Source: Actinomycetes bacterium (GTDB taxonomy: Bacteria > Actinomycetota > Acidimicrobiia > Spongiisociales > JAHEDJ01). From it: DNA of 64,000 nt. The stretch is taken from positions 62,001 to 126,000 of the forward strand of contig JAHEDK010000001.1 in assembly GCA_024641245.1 (NCBI GenBank), given 5' to 3'. The translations under genes were made by a program, and so were the position numbers. The notes under the pieces were generated by a model. That model did no database searches and had not been told where the DNA came from. It was given only the letters and a program-made list of their open reading frames with translations. This document shows, piece after piece, positions 56,928 to 64,000 of the stretch (position 1 is the first letter of the stretch; every line of letters starts with the position of its first letter).

Positions 56928-57833
56928 CTAGGGCCCAACCACTCCCACAAGAAAACCGTCATCGTCGATCACCGGAACGGGAGCGCCTCCAAGCGCCTCT
57001 CCGACCTGGCCGATCTCATCGATCGGAGAATCGACCATCACCGCGACAGGGTCTTCCATCACTTCCCCAACTTGGGTGCCCGCACCGGCCAGCATCAAGG
57101 CCGATCGGCGGACGATACCCACGAGCTTCCCGTTGTCCGCCACCGGCAACACCGGAAAATCAATGAGTGCGAGGGCATCCGCCGTTCCGAGCATCGGACT
57201 GACGTAGGCCTCAGGTTGCCGGAGAAGCTGAAAGGCTCGTTGCGGCGCAGATCGCACGACGACGGTCCCCGATGGAGCACGATTCTGCAAGCGTCGGCCA
57301 GTTCCGAAGAACTGGCGTTGCAGCCAGGATCCGCCGGGGGCTCCAACCACAAGAAGAGAACCTTCATCGAGTTCCGCCGTCAGGTCGGCCGGCTCATCCG
57401 CCTCGATGAGCCTGTAGGGGATATCCTCGACGAGCGCGGCGATCATGGCCAGGCTATCTCGCACCTCCGACCGCTGGTTGTCCCCTCCATACGACGACAC
57501 CAACTCGGCCGAAACGTCGAGGGATTCCGACAGCTGCCTGGCAACGACGGCGGCGAGTTCGGAGTGGGGACCACCCGCAACAGCCGCAGTCACGGATGTG
57601 ACCGACTCGAGGTCGAGTTCGTGCGGAACCGCAACTGAGACCAGATTGAAGTTGGTTAGTCGCCGGGTTACCAGCAGTTCTGCACGGGCGGCCCTGCAGA
57701 TCTCCTCGAGGTCCCCTTCAACCCGAACGGCACCGGGAGAGATCGCGTCGGCGAGCTCACCGCATCCCTCTCCGCGCGTCCACACAACAGACCGCAATGA
57801 GAAATGAGACGACTCCGGCTGTGGGGCAGCGAC
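56928..57833 (-). CDS. Universal stress-like + CBS domain protein
   Basis: GSLLVVGAPGGSWLQRQFFGTGRRLQNRAPSGTVVVRS (Usp-like) then CBS pair MLGTADALALIDFPVLPVADNGKLVGIV... Confidence 0.6.
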   Translation of the reverse strand, partial: VAAPQPESSHFSLRSVVWTRGEGCGELADAISPGAVRVEGDLEEICRAARAELLVTRRLTNFNLVSVAVPHELDLESVTSVTAAVAGGPHSELAAVVARQLSESLDVSAELVSSYGGDNQRSEVRDSLAMIAALVEDIPYRLIEADEPADLTAELDEGSLLVVGAPGGSWLQRQFFGTGRRLQNRAPSGTVVVRSAPQRAFQLLRQPEAYVSPMLGTADALALIDFPVLPVADNGKLVGIVRRSALMLAGAGTQVGEVMEDPVAVMVDSPIDEIGQVGEALGGAPVPVIDDDGFLVGVVGP

Positions 57834-57985
57834 CATACGGGGCTCCAGTGTGGGGCCCTTTGATCTCGAGCGCAAGCTGCCGGAGCCTACCTTCAAGATC
57901 GGTCACCGAAAATCGAGCACCGTCAACCGGTGAACCGCGTTCGACTTGGGAATCGCGGCCGGAGTCCGTACATTCTTCTCTCGCA

Positions 57986-59122
57986 ATGATTATTGGCATA
58001 CCCAAGACCACAGAGGCCGGTGAGCATCGGGTTTCTCTGACTCCCGATGTTGTCGCCCGTCTGACGAAAGAAGGCCACGAGGTCGTCGTGCAATCTGGAG
58101 CCGGAACGGCTGCCGGATTTGTCGACGAAGCGTACGAAGGATCCGGCGCATCGATCGGCGATGCCGCCCGGGCCTGGTCGGCGGATGTTGTGTGTTCCGT
58201 ATCGTTCCCATCCGAAGAAGGTGCTTCGCACCTCAAACGCGGGGCGGTCGTACTGGGCATGCTGCAACCGCTCGATGAACCCGGCCGGTTCCCAGCGCTC
58301 GCCTCGACTGGTGTGACATCGATCGCATTCGAGGCCGTTCCCCGCACGACGCGCGCTCAATCCATGGACGTGCTGTCATCACAAGCGACGGTTGCCGGCT
58401 ACCAGGCGGTCCTAATGGCTGCAGACAGACTCGACAAGTTCTTTCCAATGTTGACCACTGCGGCCGGCACAATCGCCCCATCGAAAGTGCTCGTCCTCGG
58501 TGCAGGTGTGGCGGGCCTCATGGCCATTGCCACGGCTCGCAGGCTCGGGGCGATCGTCTCGGCGTTTGACGTCCGGGCAGAAGCCGCCGAGCAAGTCCAG
58601 TCTCTCGGTGCCCGATTCGTCAGCGTTGAAATGGAACAGCAGGATTCTTCCGCGACCGGGGGATACGCCAAAGAAGTCGCCGAGGAAACCCAGGCGAAGA
58701 TCCTGGCGGGCCTGGCTAAGCCGGTCGCCGAGGCCGACGTCGTCATCTCGACGGCACAGATTCCTGGTCGCCCCGCTCCGCTGTTGATCACACGACAGAT
58801 GGTGGAGTCGATGCGTCCGGGAGCGATCATCATCGACCTGGCCGCTCCCACGGGCGGAAACTGCGAGTTGACCCGGGCAGACGAATCGATAGTCCATTCC
58901 AACGTGACGATCGAAGGCCCGACCAACCTGCCCAGCATGGCTGCCGGAGACGCGTCGCGCATGTTCGGACGAAACGCTCTGGCCCTCATGAAGCTCTTCC
59001 TCACCGAGGAGGGGCTGAATATCGACTTCGATGATGACATCATTGAAGGTTCGGTCATCACTCACGGAGGCGCAGTTGTGCATCCGCGGGTCAAGGCACT
59101 ACTCGACGGAGGAGGTAACTGA
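57986..59122 (+). CDS. pntAA: NAD(P) transhydrogenase subunit alpha 1
   Basis: MIIGIPKTTEAGEHRVSLTPDVVARLTKEGHEVVVQSGAG; VLGAGVAGLMAIATARRLGAIVSAFDVR. Confidence 0.94.
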   Translation: MIIGIPKTTEAGEHRVSLTPDVVARLTKEGHEVVVQSGAGTAAGFVDEAYEGSGASIGDAARAWSADVVCSVSFPSEEGASHLKRGAVVLGMLQPLDEPGRFPALASTGVTSIAFEAVPRTTRAQSMDVLSSQATVAGYQAVLMAADRLDKFFPMLTTAAGTIAPSKVLVLGAGVAGLMAIATARRLGAIVSAFDVRAEAAEQVQSLGARFVSVEMEQQDSSATGGYAKEVAEETQAKILAGLAKPVAEADVVISTAQIPGRPAPLLITRQMVESMRPGAIIIDLAAPTGGNCELTRADESIVHSNVTIEGPTNLPSMAAGDASRMFGRNALALMKLFLTEEGLNIDFDDDIIEGSVITHGGAVVHPRVKALLDGGGN

Positions 59123-59403
59123 TGGAACTCGTGATCTCCATCACCGTGTTCGTCCTCGCCGCTTTCGTCGGCTTCGAGGTCATCACCAAGGTGCCGCCCA
59201 CGCTGCACACCCCGCTGATGTCTGGGTCGAATGCGATTTCAGGCGTCACGATCATCGGCGCCCTCATCGTCGCCGGAAAAGCCGACAGCACGCTTGGTGA
59301 GGTCCTGGCGTTTGTGGCGGTGACAATGGCAATGATCAATGTCATCGGGGGCTTCCTCGTCACAGATCGCATGCTCGAGATGTTCAAGAAGAAGGAGCGC
59401 TGA
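59122..59403 (+). CDS. pntAB: NAD(P) transhydrogenase subunit alpha 2
   Basis: 93-aa membrane protein; FEVITKVPPTLHTPLMSGSNAISGVTIIGAL; FLVTDRMLEMFKKKER. Confidence 0.94.
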   Translation: MELVISITVFVLAAFVGFEVITKVPPTLHTPLMSGSNAISGVTIIGALIVAGKADSTLGEVLAFVAVTMAMINVIGGFLVTDRMLEMFKKKER

Positions 59404-60776
59404 TGAGCCAGGAACTCTCAGCTCTCATCTATCTCGTTGCTGCTGCGCTGTTCATCTTCGGCCTCAAGCGGCTGTCGTCACCGGCCACCGCCCGCTCCGG
59501 AAATCAGCTGGCTGCCGCCGGCATGGCGATCGCGATCATCGTGACCTTGACCAACAGCGGCATCAGCGCCTGGACGATCATCGCCGGCATCATCGTCGGC
59601 AGCGGCGTCGGCGCTTACCTGGCCAGGACGGTCGAGATGACCGGAATGCCCGAGCTGGTCGCGGCCTTCAACGGCTTCGGCGGCGGCGCCTCCGTCATGG
59701 TTGCCTCGGCCGAGTACCTACAGAATCCGGACCCTGCGGTACAGACCATCGTGACGATTGCCCTATCTGTGGTGATCGGTGCAATCACGTTCTCCGGCAG
59801 CTTCATGGCATGGGGAAAACTGAACGGCAAGCTACCCGGGCAACCCTTCGGCTACCCGGCCCAGAAGCTGATCGATCCACTCATCGTGGCGACGATTGTC
59901 TTCCTGGGCGTGATGCTGGTTCTCGATGTCGGAGGATCTTTCGTCTTGTGGACGTTGTTGGTACTGGGCCTCGTGCTCGGTGTCACTCGCGTCATCCCGA
60001 TCGGCGGGGCCGACATGCCGGTCGTCATCTCGCTTCTCAATGCGTTCTCGGGTGTGGCAGCGTCGATGGCCGGGTTCGTCATCAATGAGAACGCCCTGAT
60101 CATCTCGGGCGCCCTTGTTGGAGCCTCCGGCCTGATCCTCACCAACATCATGGTGAAGGCGATGAATCGCTCCATCGCCAATGTTCTGTTCGCCGCCTTC
60201 GGCGGTGCCGACTCGACCGGGCAGGGCGGAACGACCAGCGACAAGCCTGTCAAGGCGGCCTCTGCTGAGGATGTTGCTATCACGATGGGGTATGCCCGGT
60301 CTGTGATCGTGGTTCCTGGCTACGGTCTGGCGGTGGCGCAAGCGCAGCATGTCCTGCGTGAGCTGGCCGATCTTCTCGAAGCGAAGGGCGTCGACGTCCG
60401 GTACGCGATTCATCCGGTGGCGGGGCGCATGCCGGGTCATATGAATGTGCTGCTGGCCGAAGCAGATGTGTCATACGACAAGCTGTTCGCCCTCGAGGAC
60501 ATCAACGGGGACTTCCCCCGAACGGACGTTGCCCTCATCGTCGGAGCAAACGACGTGGTCAACCCGGCCGCTCGAGACGATGAGACGTCGCCGATCTTCG
60601 GAATGCCGATCCTCGACGTCGACTTCGCCACCACCTCAGTTGTGATCAAGCGGAGTCTGTCACCCGGTTTCGCCGGAATCGACAACCCCCTGTTCTACAA
60701 CGAGAACAACCTGATGCTCTTCGGCGACGCCAAGGCCGCCATGCAAGAGCTCGTGAAGGCAGTCGCCGAGCTCTAG
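59403..60776 (+). CDS. pntB: NAD(P) transhydrogenase subunit beta
   Basis: GGADMPVVISLLNAFSGVAASMAGFVI; VPGYGLAVAQAQHVLRELADLLEAKGVDVRYAIHPVAGRMPGHMNVLLAEADV. Confidence 0.96.
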   Translation: MSQELSALIYLVAAALFIFGLKRLSSPATARSGNQLAAAGMAIAIIVTLTNSGISAWTIIAGIIVGSGVGAYLARTVEMTGMPELVAAFNGFGGGASVMVASAEYLQNPDPAVQTIVTIALSVVIGAITFSGSFMAWGKLNGKLPGQPFGYPAQKLIDPLIVATIVFLGVMLVLDVGGSFVLWTLLVLGLVLGVTRVIPIGGADMPVVISLLNAFSGVAASMAGFVINENALIISGALVGASGLILTNIMVKAMNRSIANVLFAAFGGADSTGQGGTTSDKPVKAASAEDVAITMGYARSVIVVPGYGLAVAQAQHVLRELADLLEAKGVDVRYAIHPVAGRMPGHMNVLLAEADVSYDKLFALEDINGDFPRTDVALIVGANDVVNPAARDDETSPIFGMPILDVDFATTSVVIKRSLSPGFAGIDNPLFYNENNLMLFGDAKAAMQELVKAVAEL

Positions 60777-61835: not shown

Positions 61836-62441
61836 ATGGAATTCAGCGAGGTTCTCAAGAAGCGCCGAATGGTGCGCAACTACACGGATGAACCGGTCGA
61901 AACCGACGCCATCGAGCGCATCGTCCGGGCCGGTCGCCGCGCACCGAGTGCCGGGTTCACCCAGGGCCAGTCGTTCGTAGTCGTCACCGATCCTGCCATC
62001 CGGGCCCAGATCGCCAAGCTCGCCGACGAACCCAACTACGTCGAGGCCGGATTCGACCCTTGGATTTCGCGGGCGCCGGTCCACCTGATCGTGTGCGTCA
62101 ATGAGCAGGACTACCACCGGCGGTACCGGGAGGACGACAAGGCGCCGGACGGAGACATGGTGTGGCCGGTCCCCTACTGGTGGGTCGATGCCGGTGCGTC
62201 GATGATGCTCGTGCTACTGGCAGCTGTCGAAGAAGGCCTGGCGGCCGGGTTCCTCGGCGTGCACTCGATTCCGGACCTCAAAGAACTCCTGGCCATTCCG
62301 GCTGAGGTTGAGCCGATCGGCGTGATAACCATCGGCCATCCTGCCCCGGACCGGAGATCGAGTTCCCTCAACCGCGGCTGGAGGCGCGACACCGAGATCA
62401 AACACTGGCAGCGCTGGAACTCACCCGGCGAAGGCGAGTAG
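61836..62441 (+). CDS. Nitroreductase family protein
   Basis: MEFSEVLKKRRMVRNYTDEPVETDAIERIVRAGRRAPSAGFTQGQSFVVV. Confidence 0.9.
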   Translation: MEFSEVLKKRRMVRNYTDEPVETDAIERIVRAGRRAPSAGFTQGQSFVVVTDPAIRAQIAKLADEPNYVEAGFDPWISRAPVHLIVCVNEQDYHRRYREDDKAPDGDMVWPVPYWWVDAGASMMLVLLAAVEEGLAAGFLGVHSIPDLKELLAIPAEVEPIGVITIGHPAPDRRSSSLNRGWRRDTEIKHWQRWNSPGEGE

Positions 62442-63230
62442 AACCAGGCCGGCCGCGATCATAGCCGCAGCGCGCAAGCGCCGGGCGCCAAGAGGTTCCT
62501 TGAGGATCAACCAGCCCCCGAGCGCTCCGAACACGACAGACGTTTCTCGAACGGCGGCCACCAGCCCGAGCGAGGCAGACCGCGCCGCGATCAGGACGAG
62601 TCCGTAGGCGCCCGCCGAAGCGATACCGGCAAACACATACCGCCATCGCTCTCTTCGCACTGCAGTTCCGAGTCGCGCCCACCCATGCGACCAGACGACG
62701 ATCGGCGTGAACAAGAGCGCACCTGTCACAAACACCGTGATCGTGTATGCGAAGCTCTCCCCAAGCGACCTAACGGCGGCGCCGTCGATACTGGTGTAGG
62801 TGGCGATGAACGCTGCGGTGAGCAAAGCCCACCAGGACCCCCGCTCGCCTCTTCTCAATCCGACGATGAGCACACCCGTCGTAAGGAGCAAGATGGCCCC
62901 CAGGCCGGCCACGCCTGGTCGGTCATCGAGGAACGCAAAGGCGACCGCCGTGATGAATAGGGGCGCCGCCCCCCGGGCGATGGGGTAGACGACCGATAGG
63001 TCCGATCGCTCGTACGCCGTTACCAACGACAAGCTGTAGGCGACATGGATGAACCCGGAAACAACGAAATAGGGCCACGCACTCCACGGAATTCCAACTG
63101 TCAGCAGAAACGGCAAGAACACCAGTGCGCCGAAGAACACCTGCGCCCAGCCGGCCACCAGGCGATCGTTGCTCGCCTTGACCAGCAGATTCCAAGAGGC
63201 ATGCAACAACGCGGCGGCTAGCACCAGCAC
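62421..63230 (-). CDS. EamA/DMT-family transporter
   Basis: Ten-helix pattern; LSLVTAYERSDLSVVYPIARGAAPLFITAVAFAFLDDRP. Confidence 0.85.
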   Translation of the reverse strand: MLVLAAALLHASWNLLVKASNDRLVAGWAQVFFGALVFLPFLLTVGIPWSAWPYFVVSGFIHVAYSLSLVTAYERSDLSVVYPIARGAAPLFITAVAFAFLDDRPGVAGLGAILLLTTGVLIVGLRRGERGSWWALLTAAFIATYTSIDGAAVRSLGESFAYTITVFVTGALLFTPIVVWSHGWARLGTAVRRERWRYVFAGIASAGAYGLVLIAARSASLGLVAAVRETSVVFGALGGWLILKEPLGARRLRAAAMIAAGLVLLAFAG

Positions 63231-63374: not shown

Positions 63375-64000
63375 ATGAGTTCCGAGCAGATCGCGTCAGT
63401 GCGCCTGGCCGTCACGACTTCACTAATCGAAGGCGATGCAGGAAGCGCGTTCCATCTCATTCAGAGTCTCCTCGAACAGGGCATCCCTTTCGATGTGGTC
63501 CTCTTCGACGTCGTCGCCGTCGCCTTTTCCGACTTCGGCAGAAGGTGGCAAGAGGGCGACTATCGGATCGGCGACGAGCACGCCGCAACCGGTACGGTCG
63601 AGAGTCTGCTGGCCCTGCTGGCCGGATCGTTTGACCTGCCGGATGGAGGCGAACCAGTAGTCCTCGCCGCCGCGCAAGGCGACCACCACTCGCTGCCGGT
63701 CAGACTCGCTTCTGCTCATCTGCTATCCCTCGGGTACCGGGTGCGCTATCTGGGATCGAACATGGAAGCCTCCGATCTGGGCGCGTATCTGCTTGAGGAT
63801 CCACCGAAGGCTCTGATCCTCTCCTGCGCGATACCGACACTGCTCCCCGGCGCGAAAGAAAGCATTCGGGCGGCTCATCGCGCTCGTGTACCGGTATTGA
63901 GTGGCGGCTCCGGGTTTGGGCCGAACGGAATTTGGGCCTACGCCGTCGGCGCCGACGCCTGGGTCGCTTCGCCACGCGAGATCGATGGAGTCCTGAGATC
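63375..64000 (+). CDS. Cobalamin (B12)-binding domain protein with CarH-like W-x9-EH motif (partial, cut by window end)
   Basis: Manual translation MSSEQIASVRLAVTTSLIEGDAGSAFHLIQSLLEQ...FGRRWQEGDYRIGDEHAATG...AAQGDHHSLPVRLASAHLLSLGYRVRYLGSNM...VPVLSGGSGFG; not in the ORF track because it lacks a stop in the window. Confidence 0.8.
   Translation, partial: MSSEQIASVRLAVTTSLIEGDAGSAFHLIQSLLEQGIPFDVVLFDVVAVAFSDFGRRWQEGDYRIGDEHAATGTVESLLALLAGSFDLPDGGEPVVLAAAQGDHHSLPVRLASAHLLSLGYRVRYLGSNMEASDLGAYLLEDPPKALILSCAIPTLLPGAKESIRAAHRARVPVLSGGSGFGPNGIWAYAVGADAWVASPREIDGVLR

Follow-up and report, generated by a model that had tools for sequence, protein, structure and literature searches.

The gene that starts at position 63375 of the window (the whole 64,000-nucleotide stretch analysed here, G000:C50:62001-126000, from a 2.7 Mb draft genome that is 88% complete) most probably encodes a photocobilin that stands alone, belongs to a divergent branch (clade II) and has a switch mechanism like that of SasPcob. 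By its architecture, the encoded protein is assigned to the photocobilin family, a known kind of photoreceptor (Zhang 2024), and it very likely senses light through adenosylcobalamin (AdoCbl). The novelty lies in the branch, whose bilin-binding domain is altered.

The open reading frame on the forward strand spans 63375-63998, encodes 208 amino acids within the window and is still open at the window end. Reading on in the contig gave a gene of 332 codons (L002:1376-2374, equivalent to window positions 63375 to 64373) with its stop 373 bases beyond the window end, so that residue 208 is the last one encoded inside the window (Table 1). A ribosome-binding-like GGAGAGG lies 5' of the ATG, and start codons in the aligned relatives fall a few codons or less from the equivalent position. 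A scan of the upstream gap for sigma-70 promoters and terminators gave no match. Misassembly of the contig is unlikely, as three sister genomes agree. When sister species were compared, dN/dS was ~0.14 in the B12 half, and purifying selection acts on both the B12 and the globin half, with faster evolution in the latter.

Table 1. Features of the photocobilin gene and its divergent neighbour, in window coordinates.
Feature	Position	Strand	Basis
Gene for the stand-alone photocobilin, codons 1-208 of 332	63375..64000, on to 64373	+	ORF, contig read-through, phmmer
Four-helix cap, residues 1-82, with G55-x-R57-W58-x9-E68-H69 adenosyl pocket	63375..63620	+	Pfam PF02607, invariant columns, AlphaFold2 helices 3-84
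W58-x9-E68-H69 motif	63546..63581	+	Sequence, alignment, PMC10979010, PMC11796333
Rossmann-fold B12-binding domain, residues 95-197	63657..63965	+	Pfam, alignment
GDHH with predicted cobalt-ligand His105 (SasPcob His108)	63678-63689	+	Pfam, alignment
Last in-window bases before linker and photoglobin domain	63999..64000	+	Read-through, alignment, AlphaFold2/Foldseek
Photoglobin domain, residues 211-320, with E256 and W282	About 64005-64334, wholly outside the window	+	Alignment, AlphaFold2/Foldseek
Divergent EamA-family transporter	62421..63230	-	Pfam; beside the gene in 4/4 genus members examined

The assignment to the photocobilins rests on matches that run the length of the protein. Even for the in-window part, the first PDB matches were photocobilins. 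With the full-length sequence, phmmer matched SasPcob (8J2X/8J2W) at 2e-42 over residues 7-305 and AbPcob (8J2Y) at 2e-28 over residues 18-320, and the globin part alone (the C-terminal 122 residues) gave 8J2W (SasPcob) as its first match (E 3e-4). A family profile built from 29 relatives matched photocobilin at 2e-90 over positions 9-323. The AlphaFold2 model made from the relatives had a mean pLDDT of 94.7, and its top five Foldseek matches were all photocobilin chains (TM 0.82-0.87, 326-331 columns). Pfam recognised B12-binding (3e-10) and B12-binding_2 (5e-8, residues 14-82), both above the curated cut-off, and a scan of the full protein gave these two domains and no other. The photocobilin cobalamin motifs W-(9/10)x-EH and E/DxH are present as W58, E68, H69 and D103-x-H105, and the cobalamin domain is followed by a five-helix globin-like domain, recognised by sequence match and by AlphaFold2/Foldseek, although its helices do not reach the length of those in a clade I model. 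The first-pass annotation, made from the window alone, had allowed for a different output domain fused beyond its end; the read-through gave instead a second sensory domain, the photoglobin, and no effector, so the protein is better read as a stand-alone photocobilin than as a CarH-like orphan. No fused output domain was found in the window protein or in the aligned relatives, which on read-through were all stand-alone proteins of 300-344 amino acids.

We anchored SasPcob numbering on the seven residues named in PMC10979010 (W61, E71, H72, H108, H137, D270 and W296), all of which landed on the expected letters in the alignment. W58, E68 and H69 correspond to W61/E71/H72 of SasPcob and W131/E141/H142 of TtCarH (PMC10979010, PMC11796333). 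As the first-pass annotation had read it, the helical cap contains W58-QEGDYRIGD-E68-H69, with exactly nine residues from W to EH, and GDHH supplies the ligand, His105, at the base-off histidine position it had pointed to. The LSGGSGFG that it had placed at the C terminus is present, but it is the Rossmann domain, not the protein, that ends close to it. W58, E68, H69 and H105 were invariant in all 29 relatives, at identities down to 25%. In the bilin-binding half, W282 (SasPcob W296) was kept in 27 of the 29, and the E256-to-W282 spacing is unchanged at 26 residues. However, the window protein has Glu256 in place of SasPcob Asp270, which binds biliverdin, and Asp134 in place of His137, which salt-bridges it (PMC10979010); its stretch from the first globin helix to the bilin site is also 11 residues shorter than in SasPcob, and all three differences count against our reading. 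AbPcob, an accepted member of the family, itself has His at the Asp270 position.

Of the characterised proteins, SasPcob (Saccharothrix syringae; PDB 8J2W dark, 8J2X light) resembles the window protein in domain order, length and lack of an output domain; the two are ~33% identical over their full length and have the W/EH/His-ligand set and the Trp296 equivalent in common, but lie on different branches of the tree. AbDPcob/AbPcob, a photocobilin-diguanylate cyclase from an Acidimicrobiaceae bacterium (PDB 8J2Y), has the same two sensory domains (TM 0.86) and a fused GGDEF domain, whereas in the window protein nothing follows the globin.

For SasPcob or AbDPcob it has been shown that AdoCbl is bound, that light splits the Co-C bond and adenosyl is released, that a helix shifts and the dimer opens, and that a separate cyclase domain is activated in trans (PMC10979010). 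By analogy, we infer that the primary light switch of SasPcob also operates in the window protein. Its N-terminal domain would hold AdoCbl base-off via His105, with the adenosyl group under Trp58 and Glu68-His69 linking across a head-to-tail dimer. Light would break the Co-C bond, upon which the adenosyl group would leave, the EH helix shift and the dimer open, as in SasPcob. The photoglobin domain would pack on the corrin edge and serve either as a bilin-binding red-light antenna, via Glu256 and Trp282, or mainly as a partner-contact surface. As the window protein has no output domain of its own, signalling would have to proceed by protein-protein contact, and we agree with the first-pass suggestion that it probably acts on a partner.

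A maximum-likelihood tree (support 99/97) separated clade I, comprising SasPcob, AbPcob and six class members, from clade II, comprising 23 Acidimicrobiia-type proteins including that of the window. At position 270, clade I has Asp in 7/8 proteins and His in AbPcob; clade II has Glu in 18/23, Asp in 3/23 and Ala or Val in 2/23. The stretch equivalent to SasPcob 240-270 measures 29-30 residues in 7/8 clade I proteins, L031 being the exception with 11; in clade II it ranges from 17 to 29, with 19 in the window protein, and the globin domain is shortened in most clade II proteins. The clade I model, compared with that of the window protein, has a longer helix before this stretch and a short extra helix. 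Among 395 genomes of the class, 143 had some match, mostly to the B12 part only, and ~30 matched both domains. Within the window's genus, four of the five genomes searched carried the gene, and the fifth is 56% complete. The two named relatives, Acidimicrobiia bacterium UBA4744 (68%) and isolate Ww198 (79%), are MAGs, which points to an Acidimicrobiia bacterium as the most likely source of the window.

It is a serious possibility, in our judgement somewhat short of even, that clade II has lost the bilin altogether and senses green light only, through AdoCbl, with the globin kept as a structural part or as a docking module for a partner. The replacements at position 270, the shortened helices before the bilin site and the faster evolution of the globin half all point this way, and there is a precedent in AbDPcob, which with His at that site had a biliverdin occupancy of only ~20% (PMC10979010). 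The supply of bilin points the same way, as heme oxygenase PF01126 was not found in the window genome or in 29 of the 30 photocobilin genomes (24/24 of clade II, 22 of them at ≥80% completeness, and 5/6 of clade I), and none of the 30, window genome included, had a PHY-type phytochrome. However, the absence of PF01126 from five of six clade I genomes means that it does not separate the clades. ABM/IsdG-type or HugZ-type heme-cleaving enzymes, or bilin uptake, are other possible sources, so the missing family does not refute biliverdin use; Glu retains an acidic side chain, which could hold the pyrrole nitrogens, and Trp282 and its spacing from E256 are unchanged. The combination of an altered bilin pocket and no canonical heme oxygenase makes clade II a natural experiment on the need for bilin. 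If bilin is unused, a large part of the family bears a name that would not fit it, and the role of the globin needs rethinking.

The supply of both cofactors also weighs against the window protein being a SasPcob-like photocobilin, for besides the heme oxygenase and phytochromes, neither adenosyltransferase family was found in the window's 88% complete genome. PF01923 is nonetheless present in two of three sister genomes: among the five genomes compared it was found in G030, G109 and G257 and not in G000 or G101, while PF02572 was not found in any of them. Genome incompleteness may explain part of the adenosyltransferase absence.

Within the window's genus the gene order is transhydrogenase-like subunits, methyltransferase, nitroreductase, EamA transporter, photocobilin, thioesterase and MenC-like enzyme; the transporter is the divergent one that the first-pass annotation had noted upstream. 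The pyridine nucleotide transhydrogenase-like subunit genes (window 57797-60776), recognised from translation only, keep their order in 4/4 genus members. The photocobilin stop and the start of the 4HBT_3 thioesterase overlap in GTGA, and the MenC-like protein scored 249 bits against the TIGR01928 cut-off of 200.65. Through these two enzymes, to whose genes the photocobilin gene is coupled, the window protein could control menaquinone or acyl-CoA metabolism, which we regard as unlikely though worth stating. The photocobilin-thioesterase-MenC-like order recurs in the three genus members whose sequence covers this side of the gene, but the arrangement is not kept outside the genus (G257 differs), and operon membership alone is no proof of control. 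Such control would add a partner to the photocobilin reading and does not exclude it.

The family-defining paper called the output of stand-alone photocobilins unclear (PMC10979010), and clade II offers a concrete candidate partner, an orthologous extracytoplasmic function (ECF) sigma factor beside the gene in several relatives. ECF sigma genes of one family lie within 1.5 kb of the photocobilin gene at ten loci outside the window's genus (L047, L049, L050, L052, L059, L060, L064, L065, L066 and L073), eight of them within 100 bp. The numbers expected from sigma counts per genome were ~1.0 and 0.4; tail probabilities for this linkage are too small because they treat the loci as independent, which neighbours counted in related genomes are not. 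The pairs occur in both divergent and convergent arrangement, and a safer count is two layouts in two sub-branches. Pairwise identity among the linked sigma factors is 40-78% (L065 and L067 rows left out of this comparison), and in some relatives RskA anti-sigma genes adjoin the sigma gene. The likely output in these relatives would be the adjoining ECF sigma factor, with RskA in some. A sigma gene also lies 2.75 kb downstream of the photocobilin in the window's genus, but on sequence comparison it belongs to a different family from the linked ones, so it was rejected as a partner and the sigma link is claimed for the relatives only; its absence from the linked family is a further point against our reading.

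Heliorhodopsin genes lie 40 bp to 1.4 kb from the photocobilin in L047, L049 and L065, where genes for an NmrA-DUF2867 protein and an ECF sigma factor are also near. At L078:1351-3144 (G078), a heliorhodopsin gene is followed a few bases on by one whose CarH-like product combines an HTH with a cobalamin domain (WQDGEIGVEDEH); here heliorhodopsin is paired with another kind of B12 photoreceptor. No paper treating heliorhodopsin and B12-binding together was found in the literature searched. We consider it improbable, but specific enough to set out, that clade II forms a separate B12 switch in which bilin is lost or swapped for another ligand and the globin directly gates the ECF sigma factor or RskA, alongside heliorhodopsin. 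If true, this would be a light-to-sigma pathway free of a DNA-binding domain, with the globin as its output surface.

The first-pass annotation had described a stand-alone cobalamin-binding protein with the CarH signature. A CarH-like sensor minus its MerR domain, whether AerR-like or an orphan CarH cobalamin-binding domain, is now very improbable as an account of the whole protein. AerR/PpaA is a stand-alone cobalamin domain that acts on a partner protein. Its structure 7TE2 matched the family profile at 3.5e-6, in the B12 half only, and unlike the window protein it has no photoglobin domain. The CarH/LitR repressors (PDB 5C8D, 3WHP) also match the B12 half, have in common with the window protein the W-x9-EH cobalamin domain, the E/DxH motif and the His ligand, and would be expected to take the same first photochemical step; however, W-x9-EH with a His ligand also occurs in photocobilins and so is not diagnostic for CarH. 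CarH begins with a MerR DNA-binding domain and lacks a globin, whereas the window protein is the reverse: as the annotation had seen, its sensor begins directly at 63375, and the full gene has no MerR or HTH domain. With the full-length sequence, phmmer gave photocobilin at 2e-42 and CarH at only about 1e-7, and the CarH match lies within the B12 half and ends near residue 185. The remaining 124 residues make up a domain through which the alignment to photocobilins continues to full length. The comparison of predicted structures, proposed with CarH in mind, ranked CarH-type domains after the photocobilins and again over the B12 half only, and the in-window part scored 39.2 bits against the cut-off of 400 for the NCBIfam CarH equivalog NF052513. 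A stand-alone domain of the AdoCbl light-sensor type thus stands, and the plain CarH orphan is refuted by the photoglobin domain of the full ORF. The bis-His light state of CarH was not seen in SasPcob (PMC10979010). No other CarH-type protein was found in the genome, where the only other B12-binding-domain protein recognised is methionine synthase-like.

Least probable of all is an MtgC/MttC-like corrinoid methyl carrier for a methyltransferase, in favour of which NCBIfam gave MtgC and MtbC as weak matches (20-24 bits, where the cut-offs are 310-370). Against it, Trp-x9-Glu-His is invariant, the nearest structures are photoreceptors, the SAM methyltransferase encoded close to the gene is of a non-corrinoid type, and no MtaB/MttB/MtgB-type partner was recognised among the neighbours.

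Further neighbours were seen in relatives. Genes for cyclopropane fatty acid synthase, amine oxidase, SDR and SRPBCC proteins cluster near clade II photocobilins at L046, L048 and L066, resembling light-induced photoprotection clusters. At L070:8797-10931 (G307), a clade I stand-alone photocobilin abuts a GGDEF protein with an ABM domain, a fold common to IsdG-type heme-degrading enzymes, and the pair resembles the AbDPcob fusion divided over two genes. At L068:7313-8929 (G386), a PAS-SpoIIE phosphatase gene is divergent from a clade I photocobilin, a layout consistent with the SpoIIE/STAS link proposed for SasPcob (PMC10979010).
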